A DNA stretch of 64,000 nt from Sphingomonas sp. BT-65 (GTDB lineage: Bacteria; Pseudomonadota; Alphaproteobacteria; Sphingomonadales; Sphingomonadaceae). Where the stretch lies: contig NZ_JAPCIA010000001.1 of the NCBI RefSeq assembly GCF_026107375.2, positions 2,294,001 through 2,358,000 on the forward strand, in the 5' to 3' direction. The position numbers and the translations under genes are program-made. Below are positions 7,281 to 26,872 of this stretch, piece after piece (the first letter of the stretch is position 1; every line of letters starts with the position of its first letter). The notes under the pieces were generated by a model. It worked only from the letters and a program-made list of their open reading frames with translations, ran no database searches and was not told where the DNA came from.

Positions 7281-7326
7281 TGGCGGGCGTTGACGGGCTC
7301 GAACCGCCGACCCTCTCGGTGTAAAC
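7281..7326 (-). repeat. 3' fragment of tRNA-Val (left attachment-site copy)
   Basis: Bases 7291-7326 are identical over 36 bases to 26807-26842, which is the 3' half (anticodon loop, variable loop, T-arm, start of acceptor) of the intact tRNA-Val at 26797-26872. The match continues to 7281 with two substitutions, in the acceptor stem and at the discriminator base. No 5' half is present, so this is not a functional tRNA gene. Same orientation as the intact copy: direct repeats bounding 19.5 kb. Confidence 0.85.
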
Positions 7327-7350
7327 ATTGGGATAGTACCGAGCCTTGGT

Positions 7351-7388
7351 ATCCCGGCAAACGCTATCCCGGCAAACGCTATCCCGGC
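7351..7388 (+). repeat. 15-bp tandem direct repeats beside the tRNA fragment
   Basis: The unit ATCCCGGCAAACGCT occurs at 7351-7365 and 7366-7380, followed by a partial third copy (ATCCCGGC, 7381-7388). It begins 25 bases inside the proposed left attachment core, where integrase arm-binding sites normally sit. Confidence 0.75.
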
Positions 7389-7535
7389 GTAATTGCGCGT
7401 GCCCAGTAAGCGCAGTCCTGAGCGGCCAACCATGCCAAAAATACGGTCTTCGGTTCACAATCGACGTCATTTGGAACGGAAGCCGATGGCAGTGGTTCGA
7501 TCCCCTTGGGATCCCGGCGGAGCAGGTTTCCAGCC

Positions 7536-8156
7536 ATGACAAACGAAATCAGGATTACGCGCCGTGAGCTGATTGAAGCGGGTGCGGTTGCTCCTGCACT
7601 GCTTGCGGCGAGCGAGGTGGCCGCGCAAGCGCGAGACGCGGGAGCTCCGACGGCGAGCGTGACGCTCACGGTCAACGGCCGGCGCGAAACGCGCGATGTC
7701 GACACGCGAACCACATTGCTCGACTTCCTGCGTGAGCATCTCGGGCTGACCGGCAGCAAGAAAGGCTGCGATCATGGTCAGTGCGGCGCGTGCACGGTGA
7801 TCCTCAACGGCCGCCGCGCGAATGCCTGTCTGACATTGGCGGTAATGGCCGATGGCGACGAGGTCACCACGATCGAAGGGCTCGGCGGCGACGACCGGCT
7901 CCATCCGATGCAGGAGGCCTTCATCAAGCATGACGGCTTCCAGTGCGGCTATTGCACGCCGGGGCAGATTTGCTCGGCGATCGGGATGCTCGATGAAGCG
8001 AAGGCGGGCTGGCCGAGCCATGTCACTGCCGACGTCGCCTCTCGGCCCAGGCTCGATGATGACGAGATCCGCGAGCGGATGAGCGGCAATCTCTGCCGCT
8101 GCTCTTGCTATATCGGCATCCTCGCCGCGATCAGGGACGCAGGAGGTGTGGCATGA
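7536..8156 (+). CDS. paoA: Aldehyde oxidoreductase, [2Fe-2S] subunit (PaoA/YagT type)
   Basis: Small iron-sulfur subunit of a periplasmic molybdenum aldehyde oxidoreductase that detoxifies (aromatic) aldehydes. The N-terminus carries a Tat-type signal ([10 protein letters not shown] then a hydrophobic run to about residue 32), as in E. coli PaoA, so the whole complex is exported folded. Plant-type [2Fe-2S] ligands are C78, C83, C86, C98; the second cluster uses C137, C140, C187 and C189. The ATG at 7536 is preferred over an in-frame upstream codon because it places the Tat signal correctly. The stop overlaps the paoB start (ATGA). It is the first gene inside the proposed island. Confidence 0.9.
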
Positions 8157-9088
8157 AATCCTTCACCTACGAGCGCGCTTCCGATCCAGTCTCCGCCGCG
8201 CGCGCAGTTGCGGCGCGTCCCGACGCCAAGTTCATCGCCGGCGGAACCAACCTTGTCGACCTGATGAAGCTGCAGATCGAGGCGCCGGGGCATCTGGTCG
8301 ACGTCAGCCGGCTCGATCTCGATCGCGTCGAACGAGTGGACGGCGGGCTCCGCATCGGCGCCGAGGTGCGCAATAGCGACCTCGCCGCCAATCGGACGGT
8401 GCGCGACCGCTATCCGGTGCTCGCCGAGGCGCTGCTTGCGGGCGCCTCGGGCCAGCTCCGCAACCGGGCGACCACGGGCGGCAACCTGCTGCAACGGACG
8501 CGCTGCTATTATTTCTACGACCCTTCCAAGCCCTGCAACAAGCGCGAGCCGGGCTCAGGCTGCTCGGCGATCGGCGGGTTCAACCGTATCCATGCGATCC
8601 TCGGCGCGAGCGAGCGCTGCATCGCCACCCATCCCTCCGATATGGCGGTGGCCATGGCCGCCCTCGACGCGACGGTCGAGACGATGAGGCCCGACGGCAG
8701 CACACGGCGTATCCCGATCGCCGAGTTCCATCGCCTTCCCGGCGGCACGCCCGAGGTCGAGACGGTGATCGAGCGCGGCGAACTGATCACGCATGTGACC
8801 TTGCCGCCGCCGCCTCGGGGCCGGCAGAAATATGTGAAGGTGCGCGACCGCGCTTCCTATGCCTTCGCATTAGTCTCGGTGGCGGTGGCGGGGCGAGCGG
8901 TGGCGCTCGGCGGCGTCGCGCACAAGCCGTGGCGGGCGAGCCGGCTGGAGGCTGCGATCGCCGGCGGAGCGCCGGTCGCGCAGGCGATCGATGCCGAGTT
9001 CGCGCCGGCGCGGACCTATCCGCATAACGCCTTCAAGGTGCCGCTCGCGAAGCGGGTGATCGCCTCGGCTTTGGGCGAGGAGGTCTGA
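8153..9088 (+). CDS. paoB: Aldehyde oxidoreductase, FAD subunit (PaoB type)
   Basis: Middle subunit (311 residues) of the PaoABC complex; binds FAD and passes electrons from the iron-sulfur clusters to an acceptor. The FAD-binding signature [14 protein letters not shown] is at residues 26-40 and the second loop [13 protein letters not shown] at 103-115. A cysteine-rich insertion with C118, C128 and C137 ([10 protein letters not shown]) matches the extra [4Fe-4S] site specific to PaoB, which separates this enzyme from ordinary xanthine dehydrogenase. The ATG at 8153 overlaps the paoA stop. An upstream in-frame ATG (8105) lies inside paoA and is rejected. Confidence 0.9.
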
Positions 9089-9089
9089 G

Positions 9090-11351
9090 ATGACGCAGCA
9101 GCAGCCGACGCCCGAGGTCATTCCGCTTTCCGACACCTGGCGCGATGCCAAGATGGTGGGCGACCCCGTCCACCGGCTCGACGGGCCCGCCAAAGTGCGC
9201 GGCCAGGCGAAATATGCCTATGAGTATCGTGGTGCCGGCGAGGTGGCCTATGGTTGGATCGTGGAGGCGACGATCGCCAGGGGCCGGATCGCCGCGATCG
9301 ACACCCGGGCGGCCGAGAGCGCGCCGGGGGTGCTCATGGTGATGACCCACGCCAATGCGCCCAGGCAGGGTGGTCCGCCTCCGCGCCCGACCCAGCCCAA
9401 CCGCTTCGATCGGCCGATGCCGGTGCTGTTCCAGCCGGCGGTGCGTTATCATGGCGAGCCGGTGGCGCTGGTGGTCGCCGAGACGCTCGAGGCGGCGCGC
9501 GCCGCAGCGGCGCTGGTCACAGTTCGCTATGCTGCCGGCCGCGCCACGGTCGATTTCGAGCGGAACCGGGACAAGGCCTACAAGCCGGCCAACCGCATCA
9601 ACGCCTTTGCGCAGCCCGATACCAGCGAGGGCGACTTCGCGGGCGCGTTCGGTGCGGCGCCGGTCAAGGTCGATGCGACCTATGTGACCTCGTACGAGCA
9701 CAATATGCCGATGGAGCCGCATGCGGCGATCGCGGAGTGGCAGGGCGATCGGCTGACCCTCTGGTCGGCGCAGCAGAATCTGGGCACCGCCGTCGGCACG
9801 ATCGCCAAGACATTGCTGATCCCGCCCGGAAATATCCGCGTGCTGAGCCCGTTCATCGGCGGCGGCTTCGGCTCCAAAGTGCCGGTGACACCCAATGCGA
9901 TCCTCGCGGCAATGGCGGCGCAGCAGCTCGGGCGGCCGGTCAAGATCGCGCAGACCCGCCAGCAGATGTTTGCCAACACCGCCCATCGGCCGCTCAATCA
10001 TCAACGCGTGCGGCTGGGCGCGGAGCGCGACGGGCGGCTCATCGCTTTCGCGCATGACGTGATCCAGCAAACGACGCCTTATGACGAGTTCATTGAGCAG
10101 ACCGCCACCTTCGGGCGCGGCATGTACCAGGCGCCCAACCGGCTGACGACCAGCCGCGGGGTGATGCTCGACATGCCGAGCGGCGACATCATGCGCGCGC
10201 CGGGCGAGCAGCCGGGCAGCTTCGCGCTCGAGAGCGCTATGGACGAGCTGGCGCACGCGCTGAAGATGGACCCGATAGAGCTGCGCCTGCTCAACGAGCC
10301 GGCACGCGATCCCGAGGGCGACAAGCCCTTCTCGAGCCGCAGCCTAGTGGCGTGCCTGAAGGAGGGCGCAGCCAAGTTCGGCTGGGTCCAGCGGCCGAGC
10401 GCGCCCGGATCGCTGCGGCAGGGCGACTGGCTGGTCGGCTTCGGTGTGGCGGCGGCAACCTTCCCCGCCTTTGTGCGGCCCGCATCGGCAATGGTGGAGC
10501 TGACGCCCGACGGCACTGCGATCGGGCGGGCCGACTTCACCGATCTCGGAACCGGCAGCTGGACGAGCATGGCACAGATCCTGGCGAAGGAAACCGGGCT
10601 GCCGGTCAACCGCGTCAGGTTCGAGATCGGCGATTCGCGCTTTCCCCGCACCGCCGGCTCGGGCGGATCGTTCGGCATGACCAGCGCGGGCGCTGGCGTC
10701 CACCGCGCGTGCGAGAACCTGCGCGCGGAAATGGGGAAACTCGCCGGCGCCAGCGGCGCGGTGAAGCTGGCGGAGGGGCGCGTGCACTGGGACGGTCAGG
10801 CGCAGCCGCTGGCCGAGTTCATGCGGCGATACGCGCCGAAGGGTCTTTCGGCGCAGGGAGGACAGGGTGGACTGCCGCCGCCCGAGAAGCTGCCGGTTTC
10901 GGCGCATAGCTATGGCGCGCAGTTCGTCGAGATCGGCGTGCACCGCGTCACCTTCGAGCTGCGCATTCGTCGCGCGCTAGGCGCGTTCGCTGCGGGACGG
11001 ATCATCAATGAGCGGCTCGCGCGTTCGCAGCTGCTCGGCGGGATGATCATGGGAATCGGATCGGGGCTGCACGAGGAATCGGTGGTCGATCCCCGCCATG
11101 GCCAGTTCGTCAATCGCGATCTGGCCGAATATCACATACCCGTCCATGCCGACATCCGGAACCTCGACGTGCTGTTCATCCCTGAGCGCGAGGAGGTGTT
11201 GAATCCCTTGGGCACCAAAGGCCTGGGCGAGATCGGCATCGTGGGAGTAGCGGCAGCGATCGCCAACGCGGTGTTCAACGCGACCGGTGCGCGCGTGCGC
11301 GAAGCACCGGTGACGCTCGATAAGGTCATGGTGGGACCCGGCCAAATGTAG
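9090..11351 (+). CDS. paoC: Aldehyde oxidoreductase, molybdenum-binding subunit (PaoC type)
   Basis: Catalytic subunit (753 residues) carrying molybdopterin cytosine dinucleotide; oxidises aldehydes to acids. Visible family features are the N-terminal hammerhead domain (residues about 30-160), the glycine-rich IGGGFGSK cofactor loop, the active-site segment RAPGEQPG at about 369-376, and the base-catalyst glutamate E714 in GLGEIGI near the C-terminus, matching the GVGEIGI of E. coli PaoC. It follows paoB after one base, with a GAGG ribosome site. No paoD/xdhC-type cofactor-insertion chaperone is encoded next to it, so maturation must rely on a gene elsewhere. No dedicated regulator is adjacent. 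Confidence 0.92.
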   Translation: MTQQQPTPEVIPLSDTWRDAKMVGDPVHRLDGPAKVRGQAKYAYEYRGAGEVAYGWIVEATIARGRIAAIDTRAAESAPGVLMVMTHANAPRQGGPPPRPTQPNRFDRPMPVLFQPAVRYHGEPVALVVAETLEAARAAAALVTVRYAAGRATVDFERNRDKAYKPANRINAFAQPDTSEGDFAGAFGAAPVKVDATYVTSYEHNMPMEPHAAIAEWQGDRLTLWSAQQNLGTAVGTIAKTLLIPPGNIRVLSPFIGGGFGSKVPVTPNAILAAMAAQQLGRPVKIAQTRQQMFANTAHRPLNHQRVRLGAERDGRLIAFAHDVIQQTTPYDEFIEQTATFGRGMYQAPNRLTTSRGVMLDMPSGDIMRAPGEQPGSFALESAMDELAHALKMDPIELRLLNEPARDPEGDKPFSSRSLVACLKEGAAKFGWVQRPSAPGSLRQGDWLVGFGVAAATFPAFVRPASAMVELTPDGTAIGRADFTDLGTGSWTSMAQILAKETGLPVNRVRFEIGDSRFPRTAGSGGSFGMTSAGAGVHRACENLRAEMGKLAGASGAVKLAEGRVHWDGQAQPLAEFMRRYAPKGLSAQGGQGGLPPPEKLPVSAHSYGAQFVEIGVHRVTFELRIRRALGAFAAGRIINERLARSQLLGGMIMGIGSGLHEESVVDPRHGQFVNRDLAEYHIPVHADIRNLDVLFIPEREEVLNPLGTKGLGEIGIVGVAAAIANAVFNATGARVREAPVTLDKVMVGPGQM

Positions 11352-11647
11352 CGCTTCGTCGTTGCGTATCAGCGCGCTTCAGTCTCTGAAGCTTCCCTGA
11401 AGAGCTCAATCAGACTGGAGGCTCGAATGAATTGTGGGTCGACCTAGCTTTGAGGTTCGCCGTGCTATGCGACCGCTAAGCGCGCCCTCATTCCGGTCGT
11501 TCGGCCGGTGCGCGGACGACCCTGAAAGCAGTCGTTCGTGCAGACGCAGGCCAGGTGTCGGCTATTGGGCGGGAATCTGCCCAGCCGCTCGGGGTGCCGG
11601 TCTGAGTGAAGCGGACATTATGCTGAGGTTGCGGGAGTCCACTTCAA
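11352..11647. other. Gene-free stretch between paoC and the DUF1857 gene
   Basis: About 300 bases without a convincing coding region on either strand. It contains one copy of a dispersed intergenic repeat (11481-11540; see the second copy at 14167-14211) and ends in the strong hairpin at 11648-11678. The rest looks like decayed sequence. Confidence 0.6.
11481..11540 (+). repeat. Dispersed intergenic repeat, copy 1
   Basis: A 22-base block (11481-11502, CGCGCCCTCATTCCGGTCGT plus TC) and a second block AAAGCAGTCGTTCG about 22 bases later recur, with few changes and the same spacing, at 14167-14211. Both copies are in the same orientation and both sit in convergent gene junctions. Confidence 0.6.
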
Positions 11648-11678
11648 CGGCGAGACTGCTCGAGTTGCAGTCTCGCCG
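11648..11678 (-). terminator. Strong hairpin downstream of the DUF1857 gene
   Basis: Perfect 12-bp stem (CGGCGAGACTGC, 11648-11659, with its complement at 11667-11678) and a 7-base loop. It lies 17 bases past the stop of the minus-strand DUF1857 gene and about 300 bases past paoC. There is no long U-tract, so it may act as a weak or bidirectional terminator. Confidence 0.65.
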
Positions 11679-11694
11679 TAGATGTCGGAGATGA

Positions 11695-12168
11695 TCAGAG
11701 CTTGCCCTCCGCAAGCAGCTCCCGGGTGCGCTTAAGCGTCGACAGCAGGGCAGCTTTATATCCATTGTCGCCGTCGAATTGTGCCTGCTCCGCCTGCTCC
11801 TCGGGGCCGTTCGGCGCGTTGCCGCGCAGGCCGAGATGGCAATAGAAGCGCAGTTGAAGCGCGCCGGCTTCATCCTCGTAGAGCTCGTTGATGATCGCGC
11901 CTTCGCGCAGGCCGGCGGCCTGGAAGAAGGTGACCTTGCGCTCGTGCTCCAGCACGACGATCTCGCGCAGATCGGCGCCGCCGATCGTGGCTTCGCGGAC
12001 GAAATGCGTGACGCTCTCCTCCACGACATCGCAACGGGTGCACAGGCCGGGCGGAAGGAACAGGCGCGCGTCGCGGGCCTTCAGCTCCAGCCCGGCCCAT
12101 GCCTGCGCGCGAGTCAATTTGATCTCGCCCTCGGGGTTCACCGGGACGGTGGCGGTCGAATAGATCAT
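11695..12168 (-). CDS. DUF1857 / AtaL-like SRPBCC family protein
   Basis: A 157-residue soluble protein of the SRPBCC (START-like) fold. It shows the DUF1857 pattern: an opening MIYSTATVPVN, then LTRAQAWAGLELKAR (residues about 18-32), a CDVVEE strand, and the GAIINELYE strand near residue 100. SRPBCC proteins bind hydrophobic small molecules; the exact role of this family is unknown. A strong ribosome site AAGGAGA lies upstream of the ATG. It is the second gene of a two-gene unit with the NmrA-like gene 37 bases upstream, both divergent from a LysR regulator, which suggests ligand-induced expression of the pair. Confidence 0.8.
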   Translation of the reverse strand: MIYSTATVPVNPEGEIKLTRAQAWAGLELKARDARLFLPPGLCTRCDVVEESVTHFVREATIGGADLREIVVLEHERKVTFFQAAGLREGAIINELYEDEAGALQLRFYCHLGLRGNAPNGPEEQAEQAQFDGDNGYKAALLSTLKRTRELLAEGKL

Positions 12169-12205
12169 AGAATATCTCCTTGTTGCGGGTTGCCGCGGGC
12201 TGGGC

Positions 12206-13069
12206 TCAGGCCGCGATTTCGGCGGCGAATTCGCGATAGGTGCGCAAGGGGCGGCCCAGCAGCGCAGTGAGGCGATCGACGTCGCCGGCAGCGGGGATCA
12301 TTCCTTCGGTTTGGAAGCGCTCGGCCATCAGGCGCATGTCGTAGGCCATCCAGCTTGGCGCGAACTGCCGCAGGTTCTGCTCGAATCCGGCGATGTCGTC
12401 GCCCGGATAGGCGATCGGACGCCCCAGGACCTCGGTCCAGATCGCGGCGACGTCCGCCCCAGTCAGGGTGTCAGGGCCGACGATCGTGATCCGCTCGAGC
12501 GGAAGCGGCGTGCTTGCCTGTTCGCGGCGAATGAGCTCAATTGCCGCGACCTCTCCCAGATCGCGCGCGTCGATCATGGCCAGGCCCTTGCCGCCGATGG
12601 GCATCGGGTACACGCCATAGCCGGTCACCACGTCCTTGATGGTGAGATCGTTCTGGATGAAATAGGCGGGGCGCAGGATCGTGGCGTTGAGGCCCATCTG
12701 CTCGATCATCCGCTCGACCGCGAGCTTGCCCGCGAAGTGCGGCACGTTCACATAGAGATCGCCGTGGATCACCGACAGGTAGACGATCCGCTCGATGCCG
12801 GCGTCACGGGCGAGGTTGAGCGCGATGAGCGCCTGGGTGAATTCGTCCGCCGCCACCGCGTTGAGCAGGAACAGCGTCGAGACACCCGAGAACGCGCTGC
12901 GCAGGGAGTCGATGTCGAGCAGGTTGCCCTGAACGACAGTGACGCCCGCGGGGAGGTTCGCCTTGGCAGGATCGCGAACGAGCGCGCGCACATCGGCGCC
13001 GCGGTGGATGAGCTGTTCGACGACATAGCGTCCGACCTGGCCGGTAGCGCCGGTAACGAGGATGGTCAT
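12206..13069 (-). CDS. NmrA-like NAD(P)-binding protein
   Basis: A 287-residue atypical short-chain dehydrogenase of the NmrA/HSCARG group. The Rossmann nucleotide-binding motif TGATGQVG is at residues 6-13, followed by RALVRDP (NADP-specificity arginine region) and the GNLLD segment. Members sense NADP(H) or reduce quinones (QOR2-like); which applies cannot be told from sequence. The ATG at 13069 has a GGAG ribosome site; longer in-frame starts would run into the divergent LysR promoter. It is cotranscribed with the DUF1857 gene and faces the LysR gene, a layout typical of a LysR-activated target. Confidence 0.85.
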   Translation of the reverse strand: MTILVTGATGQVGRYVVEQLIHRGADVRALVRDPAKANLPAGVTVVQGNLLDIDSLRSAFSGVSTLFLLNAVAADEFTQALIALNLARDAGIERIVYLSVIHGDLYVNVPHFAGKLAVERMIEQMGLNATILRPAYFIQNDLTIKDVVTGYGVYPMPIGGKGLAMIDARDLGEVAAIELIRREQASTPLPLERITIVGPDTLTGADVAAIWTEVLGRPIAYPGDDIAGFEQNLRQFAPSWMAYDMRLMAERFQTEGMIPAAGDVDRLTALLGRPLRTYREFAAEIAA

Positions 13070-13090
13070 GAGGGTAACTCCTGGTTGATG

Positions 13091-13149
13091 CCAAATGGCA
13101 CTCCCAGAAATTGGTGATCCACATGCGCGCCAATAGACGCTAGATTTGG
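13091..13149. promoter_or_regulatory. Candidate LysR binding region in the divergent intergenic space
   Basis: Two pairs of CCAA/TTGG half-sites occur between the NmrA-like and LysR genes: CCAA at 13091-13094 with TTGG at 13111-13114, and CCAA at 13130-13133 with TTGG at 13146-13149 (dyad CCAA-N12-TTGG). The second lies just upstream of the LysR start, fitting an autoregulatory recognition site. Confidence 0.4.
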
Positions 13150-13174
13150 ACACAGCGTCTCACTGGTGGAACAC

Positions 13175-14068
13175 ATGGACCTGCTCGCTCTCGCCGATTT
13201 CAATCTCGTCGCACGGCACGGTGGCTTTGGACGCGCCGCGCGCGCGGCCGGACGCCCCAAGGCCACCTTGTCCCGCCGGGTTTCGGAGCTGGAAGCCAGC
13301 CTGGACCTACGGCTGTTCGAGCGCGGCGCGCGCATGCTCAAGCTGACCGAGGAGGGGCGCGCTCTCTATGAACGGACGGGCGCGTTGCTCACCGAGCTCA
13401 ACGAGACCGCGGCTGCCATCGCTTCCGGTGGACACACACCGCGCGGGCGGTTGCGGATCAGCGCGCCGTTGCTGTTCTCGCAGATCGCGATGGGAAAGCT
13501 CGCCGCCGGATTCACCGCCCGTTTCCCCGAGGTGCGGCTCGAAGTGACAACCGAAGATCGGCCGGTGGACATGATCGAGGAAGGTTATGATCTCGTGATC
13601 CGCGTTAACCCGGCTCCGGACGAGAGCCTCGTCGGACGCCCGTTTCTGCGCGATCGGTTGGTGGTGGTGGCAAACCCCTCCATCGCTCGGCCGAAAGACG
13701 GCGAGGCGGCTCCTGCGGTCATTCGCGGATCGTTCGATCAGACCGTGGACTGGAGGGTGAAGACCCCGGATGGGGTGATCCGCATCGCGGTCGAGCCGGT
13801 CCTCAGCGTGTCGTCGCTGGTCATGAACCGCGACGCGGTCCGCGCTGGGGCTGGTGCCGGACGCCTTCCGATATCGCTCGTCAGTCGCGATCTGGCTGCC
13901 GGGACCCTGGTGCATTGGGGCGACATCGACGGGCCGGAAATCGCCTTGTGGGCGCTCTATCCCTCGCGCCGCTTGCTGAGCGCCCGCGTGTCGGCATTCC
14001 TCGACTATCTCAAATTGGCCTTTCCTACGGGGGCGCCGGACGAACTGGCCGCCTTTGTCGCAGGGTGA
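13175..14068 (+). CDS. LysR-family transcriptional regulator
   Basis: A 297-residue regulator with the N-terminal winged HTH (residues 1-60; FNLVARHGGFGRAARAAGR then the recognition helix around ATLSRRVSELE) and a C-terminal periplasmic-binding-like effector domain from about residue 88 (GRLRISAPLLFSQIAMGKL). The ATG at 13175 has GGTGG 5 bases upstream; a GTG at 13166 is the alternative. It is divergent from the NmrA-like/DUF1857 pair, its likely target. The effector domain resembles the CrgA/DsdC-type subgroup common in proteobacterial redox-stress regulation. Confidence 0.9.
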   Translation: MDLLALADFNLVARHGGFGRAARAAGRPKATLSRRVSELEASLDLRLFERGARMLKLTEEGRALYERTGALLTELNETAAAIASGGHTPRGRLRISAPLLFSQIAMGKLAAGFTARFPEVRLEVTTEDRPVDMIEEGYDLVIRVNPAPDESLVGRPFLRDRLVVVANPSIARPKDGEAAPAVIRGSFDQTVDWRVKTPDGVIRIAVEPVLSVSSLVMNRDAVRAGAGAGRLPISLVSRDLAAGTLVHWGDIDGPEIALWALYPSRRLLSARVSAFLDYLKLAFPTGAPDELAAFVAG

Positions 14069-14166
14069 ATGAAGGTCGGCTTCCGGAATTCTTACGCCCA
14101 AACATCGATGTCCGAACTTGGGGCGCTAGCTGACGTCCGGTCTCAAGTTCGCATAGCCGGCGGCTA

Positions 14167-14211
14167 CGCGCCCTCATTTCGGTCGTTCATCGCGTTTAGG
14201 GCGATGCCCAC
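14167..14211 (+). repeat. Dispersed intergenic repeat, copy 2
   Basis: Matches 11481-11540: 22 bases with one change (14167-14188), then AAGCTGTCATTCG 23 bases later. It lies in the 282-base convergent gap between the LysR gene and the serine hydrolase gene, where I see no coding region. Confidence 0.6.
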
Positions 14212-14350
14212 AAGCTGTCATTCGTTTGGGTCGAGGAGTAGCGGCAGCTAGCAACCCACTTGCGACCGTTCAGCCGCATCGCCGCTGCCCTCATCTTCTG
14301 GCTCTGATCACGAATCCTGACCGTGGCGACATCACAATCGGAGCGCGCGA

Positions 14351-18296: not shown

Positions 18297-18324
18297 TAGC
18301 TTCAATCCAGCGAAAGGCAAGGCC

Positions 18325-19113
18325 ATGACCTCCAAACCATCCGTCCTCGTGACCGGCGCTTCCACCGGCATCGGCGCGGCTTACGCCGAGCGCTTCGCGC
18401 GGCGCGGCCATGACCTGGTGCTGGTGGCCCGTAACACGGCGCGGCTGGAGGCGCTGGCTGATCGTCTGCGGGCCGACACCGGCGCTACGATCGATATCCT
18501 CTCGGCAGACCTTGCCGATACCACCCAGCGCGTAGCGATCGAGGCGCGCCTGCGCGACGATGCAAGGATCGGAATCCTCATCAACAATGCCGGGACGAGC
18601 CTGGGGGGCACCTTCATCGAGCAAGCCATTGACGACATCGACAGGCTGGTGGCGCTCAACACGACCGCGCTTGTGCACCTCGCGCACGCCATCGCCCCCC
18701 GCCTTGCGCAAGCGGGCGAAGGCGCGATCGTGAATATCGGTTCTGCGGTCGGCCTCGTGCCGGAATTCGGCATGCCGGTCTATGGCGCGACCAAGGCCTT
18801 CGTGCTGCATCTCTCCCAAGCGTTGAGCCTCCAGCTCGCGTCCCAGGGCGTCTATGTCCAGGCTGTGCTTCCGGCCGCGACCCGCACCGAAATCTGGGGC
18901 CATGCGGGCGTCGATGTCGACACCCTTTCGGGCGTGATGGAAGTGGACGATCTGGTGGACGCGGCCCTGGTCGGCTTCGACCGGCGCGAGCCCGTCACCA
19001 TCCCACCACTTCACGACGTGGGACAATGGGAAGCTTTCGAGGCCGCGCGTCAGGCCATGATCCCCGGCTTCGCGCAGTCCCGACCCGCCGATCGCTATCT
19101 GGCGACCGCGTGA
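18325..19113 (+). CDS. Short-chain dehydrogenase/reductase (classical SDR)
   Basis: A 262-residue NAD(P)-dependent oxidoreductase. The cofactor motif TGASTGIG is at residues 10-17, NNAG at 87-90, and the catalytic triad S140, Y153, K157 (YGATK). The arginine after the second strand (VARN) suggests NADP preference. It resembles the DltE/YqjQ-like 'SDR family oxidoreductase' group acting on carbonyls, substrate unknown. It opens the divergent operon controlled by the TetR operators, followed after 54 bases by the OYE gene. An NADPH carbonyl reductase beside an ene-reductase and an MDR enone reductase suggests handling of reactive unsaturated carbonyls. Confidence 0.9.
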   Translation: MTSKPSVLVTGASTGIGAAYAERFARRGHDLVLVARNTARLEALADRLRADTGATIDILSADLADTTQRVAIEARLRDDARIGILINNAGTSLGGTFIEQAIDDIDRLVALNTTALVHLAHAIAPRLAQAGEGAIVNIGSAVGLVPEFGMPVYGATKAFVLHLSQALSLQLASQGVYVQAVLPAATRTEIWGHAGVDVDTLSGVMEVDDLVDAALVGFDRREPVTIPPLHDVGQWEAFEAARQAMIPGFAQSRPADRYLATA

Positions 19114-19167
19114 GAAGCCACGGAATTACGCAAACGCATTCACCACATTCGAACGGAAATCGAGACG

Positions 19168-20262
19168 ATGACCGATACCGATCTGTTCAGCCCTTACGAC
19201 CTCGGCGGGCTCACGCTTGCGAACCGCATCGTCATGGCGCCCTTGACCCGTAACCGCGCCGCAGCCGGCCTTGTCCCGAACGACCTGGCGGCGGACTATT
19301 ATTCGCAGCGCGCGAGCGCCGGCCTAATCATCACCGAGGCTACGCAGGTTTCGAAGCAGGCCCAGGGCTATCAGGATACGCCCGGCCTCTACACGCCAGA
19401 CCAGATCGCCGGCTGGCGCAAGGTGACCGACGCGGTTCATGCTAGGAACGGGCGCATCTTCGCCCAGCTGTGGCATGTGGGCCGCGTCAGCCATGTCGAT
19501 CTTCACGGCGGAGAGGCACCAGTCGCGCCGTCGGCGATCCGCGCAGAGACCAAGACCTTTGTGAACAACGGTTTTGCCGATGTGTCGCAGCCGCGCGCGC
19601 TCGACCTGGAGGAGATCCCGGGCATCGTCGATGACTTCCGCCGTGCAGCAGCCAATGCGATCGAGGCAGGTTTCGACGGGGTCGAGGTGCATGGCGCGAA
19701 CGGCTATCTGCTGGACCAGTTCCTGCGGGAAACCGCCAACGTCCGCACCGACGCCTATGGCGGTTCGATCGAGAACCGCGCCCGGCTGTTGATCGAAGTG
19801 ACGGCCGCGGTGGCGAGCGAGATCGGGGCGCAGCGGACGGGCGTCCGCCTCTCGCCGGTGTCGCCGGCAAGCGGCGTCGTCCCGGCGAGCGACGAGCAAC
19901 CGCAGTTCAACCACGTAGTGGAAGCGCTCGACGGACTCGGCATCGCCTATATTCATGTGGTCGAGGGCGCGACAGGCGGGCCGCGCGATGCGCGGCCGTT
20001 CGATTTCGACGCGCTGCGCAAGAAGTTCCGCAACACCTATATCGCCAACAACGGCTACGATCTGGAGCTTGCAAGCTCACGCCTCGCGGAGGGGAAGGTG
20101 GACCTCTTCGCCTTCGGGCGTCCCTTCATCGCCAATCCCGATCTGGTCGAGCGGCTCAAGAACGATGTGACGCTCGCTCAGCTCGACCCTGCCACGCTTT
20201 ATGGCGGCGGCGCAAAGGGCTATACCGACTATGCTGCCGCCGCCGTCGCGGCCGAAGCCTGA
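19168..20262 (+). CDS. Old yellow enzyme family alkene reductase
   Basis: FMN-dependent NAD(P)H ene-reductase of the NemA/OYE group, 364 residues (normal length). It shows the FMN barrel start (LFSPYDLGGLTLANRIVMAP), substrate-anion binding H175 and N178 in HGANGYLLDQFLR, and the conserved RTDAYGGSIENR loop. These enzymes reduce activated C=C bonds (enones, maleimides, nitro-olefins, nitrate esters). It lies between the SDR and the MDR reductase genes, 16 bases upstream of the latter, consistent with a single operon under TetR control. NemA in E. coli is likewise repressed by a TetR protein (NemR), a parallel but not a proof of orthology. Confidence 0.93.
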   Translation: MTDTDLFSPYDLGGLTLANRIVMAPLTRNRAAAGLVPNDLAADYYSQRASAGLIITEATQVSKQAQGYQDTPGLYTPDQIAGWRKVTDAVHARNGRIFAQLWHVGRVSHVDLHGGEAPVAPSAIRAETKTFVNNGFADVSQPRALDLEEIPGIVDDFRRAAANAIEAGFDGVEVHGANGYLLDQFLRETANVRTDAYGGSIENRARLLIEVTAAVASEIGAQRTGVRLSPVSPASGVVPASDEQPQFNHVVEALDGLGIAYIHVVEGATGGPRDARPFDFDALRKKFRNTYIANNGYDLELASSRLAEGKVDLFAFGRPFIANPDLVERLKNDVTLAQLDPATLYGGGAKGYTDYAAAAVAAEA

Positions 20263-20278
20263 TCAGGAGAAGCGTGCC

Positions 20279-21277
20279 ATGAAGGCCTTCATCCTCGATC
20301 GCTACAAGACGCGGACGCTGCGTCTCGATGACGTGCCGGAGCCGGCGCCCGATCCCGGCGACGTGCTGGTCAGGGTGGAGGCCGCCGGCCTCAACTTGCT
20401 GGACGCCAAGATCCGGGACGGTGAGCTCAAGTCGGTCCTGTCCTACAAAACGCCGCTTGTTCTCGGCCACGACCTTGCCGGGACCGTCGTCAAGGTCGGT
20501 GCGAATGTGCGGCGCTTCAAGCCGGGCGACGCGGTATACGCCCGTCCACGCGATGGTCAGATCGGCACCTTCGCCGAGCAGATCGTCGTCAAGGAAGCCG
20601 ATCTCGCGGCAAAGCCCGTCAAGCTGTCGATGGTGGAAGCCGCGTCGATCCCGCTGGTCGGGCTGACCGCGTGGCAGGTGCTGGTGGAACGCGCGCAGAT
20701 CAAGCCGGGGCAAAAGGTGCTGATCCATGCCGGATCGGGCGGCGTCGGCACCTTCGCCATCCAGCTCGCCAGGCATCTCGGTGCGACGGTCGCGACGACA
20801 GCGAGCGCCGCAAACGCCGCGCTGGTGAAGGAGCTGGGAGCGAATATCGTCATCGACTATCGCAGCCAGAGGTTCGAGGAAGAGTTGTCGGGCTACGATG
20901 TCGTCCTCAATAGTCTCGATGCCGGCACGCTGGAAAAATCGCTCAAGGTTCTGAAACCTGGCGGCCATCTGATCTCCATTTCGGGCCCACCCGATCCCGC
21001 CTTCGCGCGCGCGCGCGGGCTGAACCCGGTGCTGCGTCTCATGCTGCGACTGATGAGCGCCAGGATTCGGCGCGAGGCGAAGCGCGCGGGCGCCGATTAT
21101 TCCTTCCTCTTCATGCGTGCTGATGGAGGCCAGCTCGACCAGATCACCAAGCTGATCGAGGACGGCACGATCCGCCCGGTGGTCGATCGCATCTTCCCCT
21201 TCGCGGATTTGAACGAAGCCTTTGCCTACATCGAGACGGGACGCGCCAAGGGCAAGGTTGTCGTCACGCTGAAGTGA
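20279..21277 (+). CDS. MDR-family NADP-dependent oxidoreductase (quinone/enone reductase-like)
   Basis: A 332-residue zinc-independent medium-chain reductase. The N-terminal GroES-like domain (residues 1-125) has GHDLAGTVVKVG; the Rossmann domain holds AGSGGVGTFAIQLA at 151-164. No structural-zinc cysteines are present, placing it with quinone oxidoreductases and enoyl/enone reductases. The ATG at 20279 follows a CAGGAG ribosome site and starts 16 bases after the OYE stop. It is the last gene of the TetR-controlled operon; a gene-free stretch follows. Confidence 0.9.
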   Translation: MKAFILDRYKTRTLRLDDVPEPAPDPGDVLVRVEAAGLNLLDAKIRDGELKSVLSYKTPLVLGHDLAGTVVKVGANVRRFKPGDAVYARPRDGQIGTFAEQIVVKEADLAAKPVKLSMVEAASIPLVGLTAWQVLVERAQIKPGQKVLIHAGSGGVGTFAIQLARHLGATVATTASAANAALVKELGANIVIDYRSQRFEEELSGYDVVLNSLDAGTLEKSLKVLKPGGHLISISGPPDPAFARARGLNPVLRLMLRLMSARIRREAKRAGADYSFLFMRADGGQLDQITKLIEDGTIRPVVDRIFPFADLNEAFAYIETGRAKGKVVVTLK

Positions 21278-21692
21278 CGCACGCTGCCAGGAACCATAGA
21301 AGTCGATAGCCGCGGGGGAGCCTCGTCCAGCACCATTACCTCAAGGGTGTCGGGAGCCGATGCCCCTTCCGGGACGTCGCCCACTTTTGGACTACAATGT
21401 GCGGTGAAGCCGTGCCAGGGCGCTCCCGGGCAGACGAACCATGGTGCCATCGGTCCGTTCCCCGCGCCAGGGAATGGAAGCCGAAATTGCGCTAGCCGGC
21501 GCGGATAACCAAGTGGGGCAACGCTTCCTCTTTCGCAGGAAAGACAGTTGCCAGTGGTTGGTGCGGAGCAGCGAAGACACGGTGGCACGATGATTCTGAC
21601 CGAGATCTTGCTGCCCGAGGGCGCCCCACTCTCAAACGGACTTTTATACTTGTTGAGCAGTGCGCCGGTCGGTCGAGGTCAGCCTGAGGGCA
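21278..21692. other. Gene-free stretch after the redox operon
   Basis: Some 415 bases without a supportable gene. Frames are open on the minus strand (about 120 codons, 21226-21588) but overlap the reductase gene and match no family pattern that I recognise. Possibly a decayed gene or recombination scar. Confidence 0.5.
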
Positions 21693-22811
21693 TCATTTCC
21701 TCAATTCAACAAAATAGACTTGTCTATTATCCCGCTTTTCTGTGCCGAGCTTTGCCGCCATCGTCAGCTCGCGATATTGGATCCTGGTCAGAATTTTGCC
21801 GAGTTTCGGAAAGCCGCGTGCTGCGGCATTGGCCCTCGCCATATCCTCCGGCAATGCCCGAATGCGGGTGAGGTCATAGCCGGTCAGCGCGCAATTCACC
21901 TGATCGCTTTTTATGCGTTCGCAACCCTTTTCGGTGAAGCTGGGAGCGGGATTCTCGGCAAACAAACCATCGACCAGCAAAATTTCTCCGGGCCTTGCCG
22001 TGAACGACGCAAAAGGCGTTGTCAGAATTGCTTGTACTTCAACGCCGTCCACCTTCACTTCTTTTGTCGTTTTATAATATCCAGCGGCTCGTCCCTGGCT
22101 AGTCACGTTATCGGTATAAGTGCCCCATTGTACACACTGATCGCTTCCGGCTATAGCCATCGCGCAATAATTGGATTTCACCGTTTCGGTGACATAGGCT
22201 GCATTACGCCATTCCTGACCCATTTGATATTCGGAGAATTTGGTTTCTCTGAAAGAGACCTGACCTATTCTGGAGGCCCCGCCCGTGCCGCGGCTCGCGC
22301 CGGCCCGGGGAGCGCGCGTCCGGGGCAACTTATAGCTGCCACCGGTAAGGGTGTAGGTTCCCGGGGCAACGATATAGACCATGTACCGTGTGCCGCCTGA
22401 CGTGAAACTGTAGAAAGCGCGGTCGAGCTCGCCGCTTTTGAAATCCGAATCATTTCCAACGGTGAAGAAACTTTCAGGCCGTTGCCCCTTCCAGACAGAC
22501 GTGGATGTCCGGTCGATTACAAACGTCCCTGTTCTGCTGGATGTATATAACGCGCTATTATCGATCATGGCGTCTTTATTGGGGTATTTATGATCTAGAT
22601 TGATTGTTGCGGTGACGATTATGCTCATCCCATTCTCTAAGGCATCCAAAAAAAGCTGGTCGGTCAGCGCGGCATTTCGGGCTGCCCCTTCTCTGCCTTT
22701 ATCTCCTGGCGCCCTTTGAGCATGCGCAGGCACAGCTACGCACGTCATTATTGCCGCAACGGCAACCCAACCGCCAAATCGCGATGCGAGATCGGAATGG
22801 ATCTTCGTCAT
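21693..22811 (-). CDS. Secreted protein of unknown function, AT-richer than its surroundings
   Basis: A 372-residue protein with a Sec signal peptide (MTKIHSDLASRFGGWVAVAA to AHA-Q, cleavage near residue 32). The mature protein has a beta-rich central region with many Tyr/Thr/Ser (SFTSGGTRYMVYIVAPGTYT), a Gly/Arg/Ala low-complexity segment (PRTRAPRAGASRGTGGASR), three or four cysteines in the second half (SNYCAMA, DQCVQW, KGCERIK, VNCALT) and a helical C-terminus. The ATG at 22811 has a GAGGTG ribosome site. Base composition is clearly lower in GC than the flanking genes, suggesting separate acquisition. I do not recognise a family. An overlapping palindrome at 22892-22905 may regulate it. 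Confidence 0.65.
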   Translation of the reverse strand: MTKIHSDLASRFGGWVAVAAIMTCVAVPAHAQRAPGDKGREGAARNAALTDQLFLDALENGMSIIVTATINLDHKYPNKDAMIDNSALYTSSRTGTFVIDRTSTSVWKGQRPESFFTVGNDSDFKSGELDRAFYSFTSGGTRYMVYIVAPGTYTLTGGSYKLPRTRAPRAGASRGTGGASRIGQVSFRETKFSEYQMGQEWRNAAYVTETVKSNYCAMAIAGSDQCVQWGTYTDNVTSQGRAAGYYKTTKEVKVDGVEVQAILTTPFASFTARPGEILLVDGLFAENPAPSFTEKGCERIKSDQVNCALTGYDLTRIRALPEDMARANAAARGFPKLGKILTRIQYRELTMAAKLGTEKRDNRQVYFVELRK

Positions 22812-22891
22812 GAGCACCTCAAATTTGAACTAAGCATTTACAATGTAATGAACGATATCGATAAATATGCCGTCTGCAGTCAGCGCATTTT

Positions 22892-22905
22892 ATGACGATC
22901 GTCAT
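22892..22905. promoter_or_regulatory. Perfect 14-bp palindrome upstream of the orphan secreted-protein gene
   Basis: ATGACGATCGTCAT, a perfect palindrome 80 bases upstream of the gene starting at 22811, in an AT-rich intergenic region that holds its promoter. Binding protein unknown. Confidence 0.45.
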
Positions 22906-22996
22906 CCATCACTCATAAGATCTGATGTTGGATTGATTTCCTTCACCGCCTGATTGTTCTGAAAACATCCGAAGCCTGACGAAGCGGTCGCAATGA

Positions 22997-23584
22997 CTAT
23001 CCTGCCACAATTTCCCTGGGCGGATAGTCCGCCTTTTCAGAGGGGCACTGTCCTTGCATCATGATGCCTTCCTTTCCGGCCGAGAACCATTGGGATGAAG
23101 CAAAGGCATCAGGCTCAACCGGGGCGACAGCTTTATAGATGCAAACATCGGCTTTGCCGCCATCGGGGGTGATTGCTACTGCCCAGTTATAGGAGTCCTC
23201 GGCGCGATTTTCTGCGCCCCATGCAACGATACGCCCATTTTTCTCGTAGATCGGAACTTCAAGGCCGCGGGTGCCATAGATAAAGGCACGGTCATCGGCA
23301 TCACGGAGCACGGATCGGATCGCCGCCTTCACAAGCGGGTTATCCAGAAAGCGCTGTCCGTCCACCTTGTCTCCAGGATATTTGCCGACATAGCCGGATA
23401 GGCTGACCGATGCCTTTGCCGCAGCGTTGGAGGCGTCGGTTGCTGTATCCGATTGTATGATCGCTCCAGCCTCCGCCTGCACATTGCTGGCGGTGCCGCT
23501 CGCACTCTCCTTTTCCGCCGATTGCGGCCCACAAGCTGAAAGTATAAAAATAGCCGCAATTGGCGTGATCAGTACGTTTTTCAC
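22997..23584 (-). CDS. Putative lipoprotein of unknown function
   Basis: A 195-residue protein beginning (GTG) VKNVLITPIAAIFILSAC, a lipoprotein signal with lipobox LSAC (Cys at about residue 18). A Ser/Ala-rich linker (residues 20-65) is followed by a domain with the blocks GYVGKYPGDKV, FLDNPLVKAAIRSVL, GRIVAWGAENR and GGKADVCIY. Two further cysteines (DVCIY and GQCPSE) could pair. A GAGGG ribosome site supports the GTG at 23584; an ATG at 23608 would give an untypical N-terminus. Composition is AT-richer than average here, like the neighbour downstream. No family recognised. Confidence 0.65.
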   Translation of the reverse strand: MKNVLITPIAAIFILSACGPQSAEKESASGTASNVQAEAGAIIQSDTATDASNAAAKASVSLSGYVGKYPGDKVDGQRFLDNPLVKAAIRSVLRDADDRAFIYGTRGLEVPIYEKNGRIVAWGAENRAEDSYNWAVAITPDGGKADVCIYKAVAPVEPDAFASSQWFSAGKEGIMMQGQCPSEKADYPPREIVAG

Positions 23585-23948
23585 AAGCACGCTACCCTCA
23601 CCATCCACTGCACTCTGGCGTGATCTGTATCAGGTGGCATTTTGCGGACAACCCCGCGAAAATTCCGCGGTACGGCACCGGACTTGCCCTGCCTGACAGA
23701 ACGGAGACTGCGTGGGACCAGCGGCAGCTATTTCGGCGGCGATGCCCAATGCGGCCGATCCGCAATCGGCCACCTCCCGTCATCCCCTCCCAACGGCTAT
23801 TATGCGCCCTCTTACCTGTCGTTAAAGCGCTGTCTTCCCGTTCCCGACAGCGGACGCGCTCTCAGGCTGACGTCCCTGCTGCGCAGGCGTGACGCTCATG
23901 CCTCAGTTAGCGGCCACTTTCGTAGCTCACACCAATCGATGGGACCAC
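23585..23948. other. Gene-free stretch upstream of padR
   Basis: About 360 bases, no supportable coding region. It contains a perfect 7-bp hairpin (GGCCGAT at 23753-23759 with ATCGGCC at 23765-23771). Otherwise I see only short random frames. Confidence 0.55.
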
Positions 23949-23977
23949 TTGACCGCTAACTCTACATATGTTGTATT
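23949..23977 (+). promoter_or_regulatory. padR promoter with internal dyad; predicted leaderless transcript
   Basis: -35 TTGACC (23949-23954), 17-base spacer, -10 TGTATT (23972-23977). The spacer holds the dyad TACATATGTTGTA (23963-23975; core ACATATGT), similar to PadR-type ATGT/ACAT sites. The padR ATG at 23987 is only 9 bases past the -10 and has no ribosome site, so the mRNA probably starts at or near the ATG. Confidence 0.55.
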
Positions 23978-23986
23978 GTTTTTGTA

Positions 23987-24292
23987 ATGGCCGTTACTCG
24001 CCGCCCGTCGCGCCAAATGCGCATCTTGCTTGAACAGCTGTTGGCCCATGCCCCGCGGTTGCAGCACGGATATGAATTGATGAAGCAAACGGGGCTGTCT
24101 TCAGGCACGCTCTATCCGCTTTTGATGCGAATGGCCGATCAAGGGCTCGTAGAGGCGGAATGGCAGGCGCCTTTACAGCCTGGCCGACCGGCGCGTCACG
24201 CCTATCGCTTGACTACTGGCGGCGCGCAGTTCGCTCGCGACGCGTTGCGGGATGACGGAGGTGCGCCGCGCGGCGTGCCGTTCCCCGCATGA
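23987..24292 (+). CDS. PadR-family transcriptional regulator
   Basis: A 101-residue winged-HTH protein of the short PadR subfamily. The pattern ILLEQLLAHAPRLQHGYELMKQTGLSSGTLYPLLMRM covers the HTH (visible core GLSSGTLYPLL, residues 37-47), followed by the wing (GLVEAEW; RPARHAYRLTTGG). It ends with an ATGA overlap with the membrane-protein gene. PadR plus a downstream membrane protein is a recurrent pairing in proteobacteria in which the membrane protein is co-regulated or modulates the regulator. Autoregulation is likely from the dyad in its promoter. Confidence 0.88.
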   Translation: MAVTRRPSRQMRILLEQLLAHAPRLQHGYELMKQTGLSSGTLYPLLMRMADQGLVEAEWQAPLQPGRPARHAYRLTTGGAQFARDALRDDGGAPRGVPFPA

Positions 24293-24942
24293 CCACTACA
24301 TCGGCCAGGCTGGTGATGGCGCTGGCGGTGCAGAGCCTCGGCGAGCATCGCATTGCATGGGCGCAGGCGATGGCAGCCGAATTCAAGGCCGCGGAGGAAG
24401 ACGGGCGTCCGCTTCGTTTTGCACTGGGCTGCCTGATCGGCGCGTGGCGGATGATGCCGGCCCATGCCGAGGGCCGCTTCGTACTTGCCAGCTATGCCCT
24501 GTCGCTAGGGGTGCTCATCCCCGTAGCCGCGATGCTGGCGCTGGCCGCAGCGTTTGGCTTCCCCTTCTTCGCTGCAAGCGACGGCGTCGATGGTTACCTT
24601 TGGGGCAGTGGCGCTCATGTGCTGCTTCTGAATGACGGAAACATGATTGTCGCGCCCTCCCTTGCCCTTTTGATGATGGCGATGGCGGCACTCCACCTTC
24701 CGCTCGCCTGGTGGATGCTGGACGGCGATTGGGATCGCGTCGCCGCCGCCAACCGATTCGGCGCGGCAGCCGCTACGACGCTGGCGATCGTCATGAGCCT
24801 TGCCGCGCTGGACCCGACTCGACTGTTGCTGCCGATTGCGGTGCTGGCCGCGGAGATGGCCACGATCTGGGCGCTGACGCGGTGGTACCAACGACTCTTC
24901 GGCGACGACGACGCTCTCGACGAGTTCGCTGCGGCGAGCTGA
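24289..24942 (+). CDS. PadR-associated membrane protein, unknown function
   Basis: A 217-residue protein. The cytoplasmic N-terminal region (residues 1-60; EHRIAWAQAMAAEF and RFALGCLIGAWR) matches the helical module often encoded just after padR genes. Four or five transmembrane helices follow (about 63-90, 116-143, 155-172, 175-195), and the tail is acidic (GDDDALDEF). The start overlaps the padR stop, indicating translational coupling. Its role is unknown; by analogy it may tether or modulate the PadR protein or act in the process it regulates. The hydrolase gene follows after 27 bases. Confidence 0.75.
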   Translation: MTTTSARLVMALAVQSLGEHRIAWAQAMAAEFKAAEEDGRPLRFALGCLIGAWRMMPAHAEGRFVLASYALSLGVLIPVAAMLALAAAFGFPFFAASDGVDGYLWGSGAHVLLLNDGNMIVAPSLALLMMAMAALHLPLAWWMLDGDWDRVAAANRFGAAAATTLAIVMSLAALDPTRLLLPIAVLAAEMATIWALTRWYQRLFGDDDALDEFAAAS

Positions 24943-24969
24943 GCAAGACGCAATCGAGGGGAGCAAGAC

Positions 24970-26667
24970 GTGCCAAGGGCAAGAACAATCGTGCCGCACC
25001 GACTTGTGCAACATGTGACGTGGTTTTTCCTCGTGCTTTCACTCGCGATTGGCCTCGTTGGACCAGGCCGGGCGGATGCCCAGCAGGTGCAGACCTATGG
25101 TGCATCGCGCTGGCAGATCTGGGGCACGACGTCCGGTTATGGCCTTGACCAAACGGTCTCCGGAGGCGGAACCGTGGCGGTGCAGCCGCGGACGGGGCCC
25201 GGCGAACCCTGGTCGAGCGGCGCAGGCATGACGATCCCGGGAAGGATCACCTCAGGAGAGCGCGTGACCGCCATTTTCTGGGCTCGCGCAGCGCGGCCGG
25301 TGCGGCTGACCGTGGCATTGCAGGGTGGCGCACCGGGCTATGCGCGCTTTGCAACGATGGAGGCGGCGTTGACGTCTGCCTGGCAGCAGGTGTCAGTCAG
25401 CGGCATAGCACCCAGTGACTTCGCCGCGGATTCACAGTCGCTTTCGGTGCCGCTCGGTCTGGCAGGCGCCGAGGTCACGCTGGGGCCAGTTGCATTCCTG
25501 CGCGGAACTGTCGACCGCACTACCGTCGTGCGCGCCTTCGCCGATTTCCGACCTGCGGAAATCGTCGTCGACGTCCGCCTCCAGTCCAAGCCCGGCGTAA
25601 TTCTGGCCGGGACGCTGCGCTTGCCGACCGGCCACGGCGACGGCCCTTTTCCGATCGCGATCCTGATCCAGGGGCATGGGCCCAATGGGCGCGGTGGATT
25701 CCCGGAGATTATCAAGCGGCTGACCGGCGACGGCATCGCGACTCTTGAATATGACAAACGCGGGATCGGGCAGTCGACCGGCAAATACGAGGAGGACATA
25801 GAGCGATTGACCGCCGACGCTGCGGCCGCCGTAGCGGCGATGCGCCGCCAACCGGATGTTGACGGTAGCCGCGTCGCGCTGGTCGGGCAAAGCCAAGGCG
25901 GTGTGATCGCACCTGCGGTGGCGGCTGCTGACCCGACGATCGCAACCGTGGTCATGCTCGCCGGATCGGTCGGGGACGGACTGCCTTACCTTCGGCAGGC
26001 GATTTTCAGTCAAATGATCTTTGCCGGTCGGCCCGAGGCGACGGCGGGCCCCGCGGCCGATGCCGCCATCGCGCTCCTCCAGGCCCGGATCGACGGCAAG
26101 GATGCAGCGACGATCGAAACGTTACGCGCGGCGGTAATCAAAAAGTTCGAGGCAGCGGGTTTTCCGCGGCCGATGGCGGAACGCGCGCTGGCGACGATCG
26201 ACACGCCGACCGCGTGGAAGGCAAATCAGCTTCGATCGGCCTCCGATCTCAAGATGCTGCGGATGCCGGTCCTGGCGGTGTTCGGGACCAAGGACCCGCT
26301 CGTTGTGGCTTCTCACGAAGCCCCGGCGGCGCGCGCGGCGCTGACCGATAACCCACGCGCACGCGTGGTGGTGCTGGACGGGCTGAGCCACTGGTTCCAG
26401 GAAGGCGCCGTTACCGGCGCGTCAGCGGAAGGTACGAAGCTGGGCCCGAATCTCGGGTCGCCGCGCCTGGTGACGCTTGTCGGGGACTGGCTGCGCGATG
26501 TGCTGGCGCCGGGAAGCGGCAAACCAGAGCGCGCTAGAGCGGTTTGGGATCGAATTACATCCGATCAACGATCTCACGCCGACATCGTCGCCGAAGGCCC
26601 CTGCCTTGCCGGGTCAGCTTCGGCTATCAGCTTGCTTATAAGCGGCCTGGCAGCTTACGGCCCCTAA
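24970..26667 (+). CDS. Secreted alpha/beta hydrolase with N-terminal jelly-roll domain and unusual C-terminal tail
   Basis: A 565-residue exported hydrolase. The GTG at 24970 has a strong GAGGGGAG ribosome site; the signal peptide ends near ADA-QQ (residue 38). Residues about 40-185 look like a carbohydrate-binding-type jelly roll. The alpha/beta-hydrolase domain (about 195-520) has oxyanion segment IQGHGPNGRGG, nucleophile serine in GQSQGG, catalytic Asp in FGTKDPL and His in DGLSHWF. Relatives are dienelactone-hydrolase-like acyl esterases or peptidases; substrate unknown. The last 44 or so residues (after LAPGSGKPE) show no domain character and are encoded by sequence resembling intergenic repeat DNA, suggesting the original stop was lost. 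Third gene of the padR operon. Confidence 0.8.
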   Translation: MPRARTIVPHRLVQHVTWFFLVLSLAIGLVGPGRADAQQVQTYGASRWQIWGTTSGYGLDQTVSGGGTVAVQPRTGPGEPWSSGAGMTIPGRITSGERVTAIFWARAARPVRLTVALQGGAPGYARFATMEAALTSAWQQVSVSGIAPSDFAADSQSLSVPLGLAGAEVTLGPVAFLRGTVDRTTVVRAFADFRPAEIVVDVRLQSKPGVILAGTLRLPTGHGDGPFPIAILIQGHGPNGRGGFPEIIKRLTGDGIATLEYDKRGIGQSTGKYEEDIERLTADAAAAVAAMRRQPDVDGSRVALVGQSQGGVIAPAVAAADPTIATVVMLAGSVGDGLPYLRQAIFSQMIFAGRPEATAGPAADAAIALLQARIDGKDAATIETLRAAVIKKFEAAGFPRPMAERALATIDTPTAWKANQLRSASDLKMLRMPVLAVFGTKDPLVVASHEAPAARAALTDNPRARVVVLDGLSHWFQEGAVTGASAEGTKLGPNLGSPRLVTLVGDWLRDVLAPGSGKPERARAVWDRITSDQRSHADIVAEGPCLAGSASAISLLISGLAAYGP

Positions 26668-26767
26668 GCAGCCATCAAATACCCTTCAGGAACCGAGGGT
26701 ATCTTCGTGCACGAGTTCGCTGGATACACAGCATCATGACCGGGTCTGGCCGATGCCGTCCAATCAC

Positions 26768-26788
26768 AAAAAAATGGCGGTTTTCCGC
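26768..26788 (-). terminator. Intrinsic terminator of the tRNA-Val gene
   Basis: On the minus strand, just past the tRNA 3' end, GCGG-AAAA-CCGC forms a short GC stem followed after CA by seven T's (plus-strand A tract 26768-26774). Confidence 0.65.
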
Positions 26789-26796
26789 GGTCTGGA

Positions 26797-26872
26797 TGGT
26801 GGGCGCTGACGGGCTCGAACCGCCGACCCTCTCGGTGTAAACGAGATGCTCTACCAACTGAGCTAAGCGCCC
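26797..26872 (-). tRNA. tRNA-Val, anticodon UAC, CCA encoded
   Basis: The minus strand folds as a full cloverleaf: 7-bp acceptor GGGCGCT/AGCGCCC, D-arm GCTC...GAGC, anticodon stem TCTCG/CGAGA with loop TTTACAC (anticodon TAC), T-arm GGCGG-TTCGAGC-CCGTC with one G-U pair, discriminator A, and CCA encoded (26799-26797). It is divergent from gltX. Its 3' half is duplicated at 7281-7326, marking it as the probable integration site of the neighbouring island. Confidence 0.97.

Follow-up and report, generated by a model that had tools for sequence, protein, structure and literature searches.

The window, the whole stretch of 64,000 nucleotides analysed here (C1:2294001-2358000 of Sphingomonas sp. 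BT-65, genome of 4.08 Mb), contains an interval of accessory genes lying between a gene for a small secreted-looking protein and gltX (Table 1). A single tRNA gene, tRNA-Val(TAC), was detected in the window, with an Rfam tRNA score of 68.4 bits. It stands at the gltX end of the interval, and a part of it is repeated at the other end.

Table 1. Features of the interval and its flanks (positions in the window)
Feature	Position	Strand	Remark
Small secreted-looking protein gene	6901-7263	+	left chromosomal flank; homologue abuts tRNA-Val in relatives
Displaced tRNA-Val(UAC) 3' half	7280-7326	-	direct repeat of 26796-26842
Perfect 15-bp tandem array, 2.6 copies	7350-7388		just inside left end
Module A: PaoABC-like molybdenum hydroxylase (2Fe-2S, FAD and Mo subunits)	7536-11351	+
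Module B: AtaL-like protein (-), NmrA-like reductase (-), LysR regulator (+)	11695-14068
Beta-lactamase-fold serine hydrolase	14351-16192	-	PF00144
Module C: hotdog thioesterase (-), TetR (-), SDR (+), OYE-type alkene reductase (+), zinc-type oxidoreductase (+)	17173-21277
Two genes with no Pfam or NCBIfam match	21693-23608	-	in lowest-GC part
Module D: PadR regulator, Pfam-unmatched membrane-like protein, alpha/beta hydrolase	23987-26667	+
Non-coding right end of the interval	26668-26796		adjoins tRNA; expected place for an integrase gene
Complete tRNA-Val(UAC)	26797-26872	-	called by both ARAGORN and Rfam
gltX	26966-28291	+	right chromosomal flank

The split tRNA-Val gene

The two members of the repeat pair lie in direct orientation at an offset of 19,516 bp and are identical at 45 of 47 positions. 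An earlier note on this DNA had claimed a perfect direct identity of 36 bases between 7291-7326 and 26807-26842, the right copy within a complete tRNA-Val and the left copy without the 5' half, and all of this was recovered. The left copy retains the 3' half through the anticodon loop, the loop included, and the identity breaks off after GTGTAAAC, which is the anticodon loop on the plus strand. It is the sole exact direct repeat of at least 25 bp within the window (inverted repeats being outside that count), and 2.5e-11 repeats of 36 bp are expected by chance. A search of the same genome with positions 7200-7400 returned just two places at E <= 0.001, which are the two halves of the pair (40 of 55 candidates scored). 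tRNA gene fragments commonly arise from the insertion of mobile elements (PMC9897764). The fragment at 7280-7326 is presumed to be the original chromosomal 3' half and the outer attachment site, while the complete tRNA gene would be a regenerated one, combining the chromosomal 5' half with a 3' half borne by the island.

Proposed cargo genes, composition and relatives of the interval

The genes of the interval correspond broadly to what had been proposed as its cargo: the PF00144 hydrolase and the TetR and PadR modules were found as described, and the paoABC genes are Pao-like only. PaoA scored 315 bits against an NCBIfam equivalog cut-off of 322, and PaoC 771 against 1180; module A is therefore considered related to the Pao enzyme and is not called equivalent. 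The hydrolase had also been placed under a BlaI operator; BlaI-type repressors were found in three places of the genome, none of them within the window. PADLOC returned weak generic matches only, for seven proteins.

The composition of the interval, which the earlier note had named as a check, departs from its surroundings. Its GC content is 0.636, compared with 0.702 and 0.691 in the flanks, and is lower than that of any of 20 same-size stretches of the same chromosome (mean 0.675, SD 0.011, minimum 0.643). The tetranucleotide distance is high (0.181), but one of the 20 reference stretches equals it (0.182), which speaks against the island reading. The earlier note had spoken of unusually many gene-free gaps; in a rough check by our own gene calls, coding sequence makes up 85% of the interval, and the widest gap extends over approximately 16193-16733.

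The genus was searched with the interval, 235 of 295 genomes being scored with one candidate stretch each. None of the matches listed from these genomes contains the interval in full. This, together with the two of 47 positions that differ in the tRNA fragment, is an observation against the island reading. The best non-self match listed was a block of 2.4 kb with 3132 bits, where the window's own copy scores 35111; no block among the matches listed exceeded approximately 4 kb. Within the genus and among the matches listed, module B showed 69-89% DNA identity to other loci, module C 71-78% and module D 79%. Module C matched plasmids of Rhizobium, Sinorhizobium and Agrobacterium with 83-84% identity over 2.5-3.6 kb, and the best named relative of the 374-aa orphan product was 81% identical and belongs to Lysobacter sp. 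Root667. The earlier note had held that the same interval in relatives lacking the tRNA fragment, or a grouping of these genes conserved across the genus, would speak against an island; no relative listed carries the whole interval, nor the genes as one block elsewhere.

The content is thus mosaic. For modules B, C and D the best relatives differ, lie at unrelated loci and diverge to different degrees, which could mean that integration brought in only a small core along with the attachment sites, modules A to D being accreted later into a tolerant site by homologous or illegitimate recombination. Mosaicism is however also usual in islands before transfer, and neither a second direct repeat of at least 25 bp nor a transposase in the frames scanned marks any later event. 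Late accretion is a serious possibility, though we consider it somewhat less probable than an arrival of the modules with the element.

Empty sites and the ends of the interval

In the window, the tRNA fragment starts 17 nt past the stop of the small gene at 6901-7263. The product of this gene had matches in 30 of 121 genus genomes, and its named relatives are nearly all Sphingomonas; the stretch from the tRNA to gltX had matches in all 121, in a few of them apparently through the tRNA alone. The earlier note had looked to relatives for an uninterrupted tRNA-Val beside the small gene, and such a tRNA-Val was indeed found there, directly adjoining a homologue of that gene and with gltX next to it. 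This empty site (small-gene homologue, intact tRNA-Val, gltX) is present in six related Sphingomonas genomes. In four of them, Sphingomonas sp. R647 (G110), MAG 32-66-10 (G015), S. tagetis MG17 (G030) and G026, 10-36 nt separate the stop of the small gene from tRNA-Val, which is followed by gltX. MAG ACE_PRO40 (G056) and S. turrisvirgatae MCT13 have the same uninterrupted order with a wider spacing, tRNA and gltX being some 500-600 bases apart. Named small-gene loci were also inspected, 30 of 32 being examined and the two omitted ones not being sphingomonads. tRNA-Val starts no more than 103 positions past the matched coding stretch in 14 of these loci and lies farther away in six (once in the other orientation), and no tRNA-Val was present inside the stretch fetched in the remaining 10; gltX was found in five of the 30.

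In a protein tree of gltX (18 rows, midpoint root), the genome of the window (G000) was grouped with G045, G030, S. turrisvirgatae, G056, G069, G015, G110 and G026 with a support of 99/96, the tree giving no single closest sister. As six of the eight other members have the empty site, simple counting makes this the ancestral state. G045, whose flanks match best, is occupied by an element of opposite polarity (see below), a point against the island reading. An island end shared with G045, where about 14 bases of the tRNA 3' flank are alike, was considered and dismissed, since the 1.2 kb that separate the tRNA from the small gene there have no significant similarity to the island. On its reverse strand, this 1.2-kb stretch resembles a membrane transporter gene by eye.

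The search for mobility genes covered called genes and gap frames, short frames within called genes being left out, and revealed neither an integrase nor genes of phage or transfer functions, nor a transposase in the frames scanned. A six-frame search of the genome for PF00589 returned five places, none in the window, and a local profile, built from integrases found in the course of this analysis, gave only noise when run on the window's first 32 kb (best E 5.1). No integrase remnant was detected by Pfam or PHROG among the 68 gap frames, none of which matched PHROG (for the main genes, Pfam was the database used). One gap frame, outside the 47 re-scanned singly, matched PNKP_ligase of Pfam (E 3.6e-6), and two others gave matches below the cut-off, to DUF6691 at 16737-17006 (-, E 0.0055) and to a zinc finger at 16198-16383 (+, E 0.0096). 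Comparison of the interval with phage records by megablast gave no match, and structural or replication genes of a prophage were not found in it. The mobile origin of the interval therefore rests on its ends. At the right end, 137 bases had matches in five other genomes of 295 over 21-41 bases only, which is read as a common terminator-like sequence. The 15-bp array at the left end possibly represents arm-binding sites of an integrase; no further copies of its unit were found in the window at up to two mismatches.

Taken together, we estimate at about nine in ten the probability that 7281-26796 is a tRNA-borne genomic island which entered through tyrosine-integrase recombination and has since decayed to an integrase-less, CIME-like state. 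The incoming element would have carried, at its attP, the 3' half of tRNA-Val(UAC), and a tyrosine integrase, probably its own, would have recombined it with the chromosomal tRNA gene, the exchange presumably falling in the anticodon loop. Integration would have restored a whole tRNA on the gltX side and displaced the old 3' half by 19.5 kb, to beside the small gene. The modules would have arrived in the same event, and the integrase and any transfer genes would have been lost later, leaving both attachment sites as in a CIME. Of the earlier description of an island that had lost its integrase, the island is upheld and no integrase fragment was found; the loss itself is something we infer, because an integrase acting in trans could also account for the integration.

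Other elements at the same tRNA and comparison with known systems

Loop-ending 3' halves were sought by pattern in 397 genomes of the family, a set that includes only few of the window's genus and neither G045 nor G069; the pattern passes over fragments followed by G or carrying substitutions. Two of the 397 genomes contain such a half, that of the window and G483, from another genus of the family. In G483, a PF00589 integrase gene lies about 60 bp from the 3' end of tRNA-Val, and at a distance of about 7.3 kb there is a 3' fragment that ends on the same loop base. This element thus shares with the island its tRNA-Val, polarity and anticodon-loop end, but it is only about 7.3 kb long, has its integrase beside the tRNA, and its ends share only matches of 10-11 bases with those of the island.

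The family therefore has an integrase beside a site of the same polarity, and this, with both attachment sites kept and no integrase remnant found in the interval, would suit an island that never had its own integrase, i.e. a satellite- or CIME-like cargo integrated in trans by the tRNA-Val(UAC)-specific integrase of another element. The PF00589 genes of the same genome are however not close to the G483 integrase (at best 28% over 366 aa and 34% over 165 aa) and score at most 41 bits with that of G045. Decay of an original integrase is also the commoner history. Integration in trans is thus judged unlikely.

The corresponding search for 5' halves returned one of the 397 genomes, G351, where a 5' fragment lies next to an integrase gene whose product is a homologue of the G045 integrase (432 bits) and the intact tRNA-Val is 49 kb off. 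The 5'-half layout was also found in G045 and G069, known from the genus search. The G045 element, of about 37 kb, appears to be a prophage by reading of its predicted proteins; the ends of the G069 element are on two different contigs and are presumably linked. These three elements use the same tRNA-Val and the same boundary loop bases as the island; in contrast to it, they have the opposite polarity, and the 5' half is left beside a different, mutually related integrase lineage. GTGTAAAC stands at the boundary in all five elements (window, G483, G351, G045, G069), which suggests that they may share one crossover point. These boundaries also bear on the idea that part of the tRNA gene was duplicated by chance or illegitimately, with no integration involved. 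Such a duplication would leave no integrase inside, as found here; against it, both ends are exact (at the tRNA 3' end and at the anticodon loop), the fragment is correctly oriented and on the correct side, the site is empty in relatives and other elements stop at the same loop bases, so that it is very improbable.

We find it fairly probable that the anticodon loop of tRNA-Val(UAC) in sphingomonads serves as an integration port of two polarities, where distant integrase lineages would exchange at GTGTAAAC, one kind donating a 3' half and the other a 5' half. If so, elements could accumulate on both flanks of a single functional tRNA gene. This use of one loop in both polarities by different integrases is the sole point above routine. 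The interval itself is a further example, sound and ordinary, of a well-known kind of island: it has a complete tRNA at one end, a direct fragment on the correct side at the other, and an empty site in relatives. What it contributes is an accessory segment of a Sphingomonas chromosome whose limits are exactly defined and for which empty sites are demonstrated. For Sphingopyxis TFA, genomic islands have been discussed in general terms (PMC4741004).

A CIME is described as keeping both attachment sites and lacking integration and transfer genes (PMC5704250). The interval resembles it in retaining both sites, with no integration or transfer gene in the frames scanned. It differs in that no related functional ICE or IME, as ancestor or tandem partner, was found, and cis-mobilisation is putative here. 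With the tDNA islands described for Islander, it shares a complete tRNA and a displaced 3' fragment as end points and an anticodon-centred site (PMC4383910), which as site A is reported for 2083 of 3919 islands (PMC4383910). It departs from that set in that no integrase was found, none lying inside or overlapping the interval as a tyrosine integrase should under the Islander criterion (PMC4383910). As the filter described for Islander demands an integrase, remnants of this kind are rejected there (PMC4383910), and the interval illustrates what would be rejected by an island finder that depends on integrases. Among the same 3919 islands, 3760 are reported with a 3' fragment and 159 with a 5' fragment (PMC4383910). 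The elements of opposite polarity at the same tRNA bases thus provide a small natural system for asking why integrases donating a 5' half are rare.

Sequence features inside the island

Features detected in the island next to tRNA-Val(UAC)
Feature	Window position	Remark
Perfect 15-bp tandem array	7350-7388	Immediately inside the left end of the island
Near-palindrome containing TTACAGCTGTAA	16287-16310	Upstream of the PF00144 hydrolase gene
Two neighbouring orphan genes	21693-23608	No Pfam or NCBIfam match

The tandem array is a candidate for integrase arm sites. The near-palindrome appears to resemble the BlaI operator; a search of the same genome for Penicillinase_R identified three places, all of them elsewhere and none within the window. 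The orphan pair is located in the part of the window with the lowest GC content (about 51–60% per kb). Six relatives of the first gene were found (self excluded), its product being 81% identical to a Lysobacter protein, and seven were found for the second.

A recombinase pair elsewhere in the chromosome

Two tyrosine recombinase genes lie side by side in the chromosome contig of the window's own genome (G000 C1:785694-787647), and the stretch sampled from C1:800001 displayed the lowest GC content among the 20 stretches compared. This region is perhaps another island.

The tRNA-Val site in other genomes

The homologue of the small gene flanking the island on the left is separated from tRNA-Val by about 30 kb in G104, 3.6 kb in G088 and 13 kb in G054 (L096-L099). 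No second strong copy of a tRNA half was detected in the loci searched at these places (in G104 only to 369000). Elements in three further genomes, G045 (L063-L065), G069 (L070-L071) and G351 (L105-L106), have left the 5' half of the same tRNA-Val, and in each of them the fragment is adjoined by an integrase, these integrases being related.
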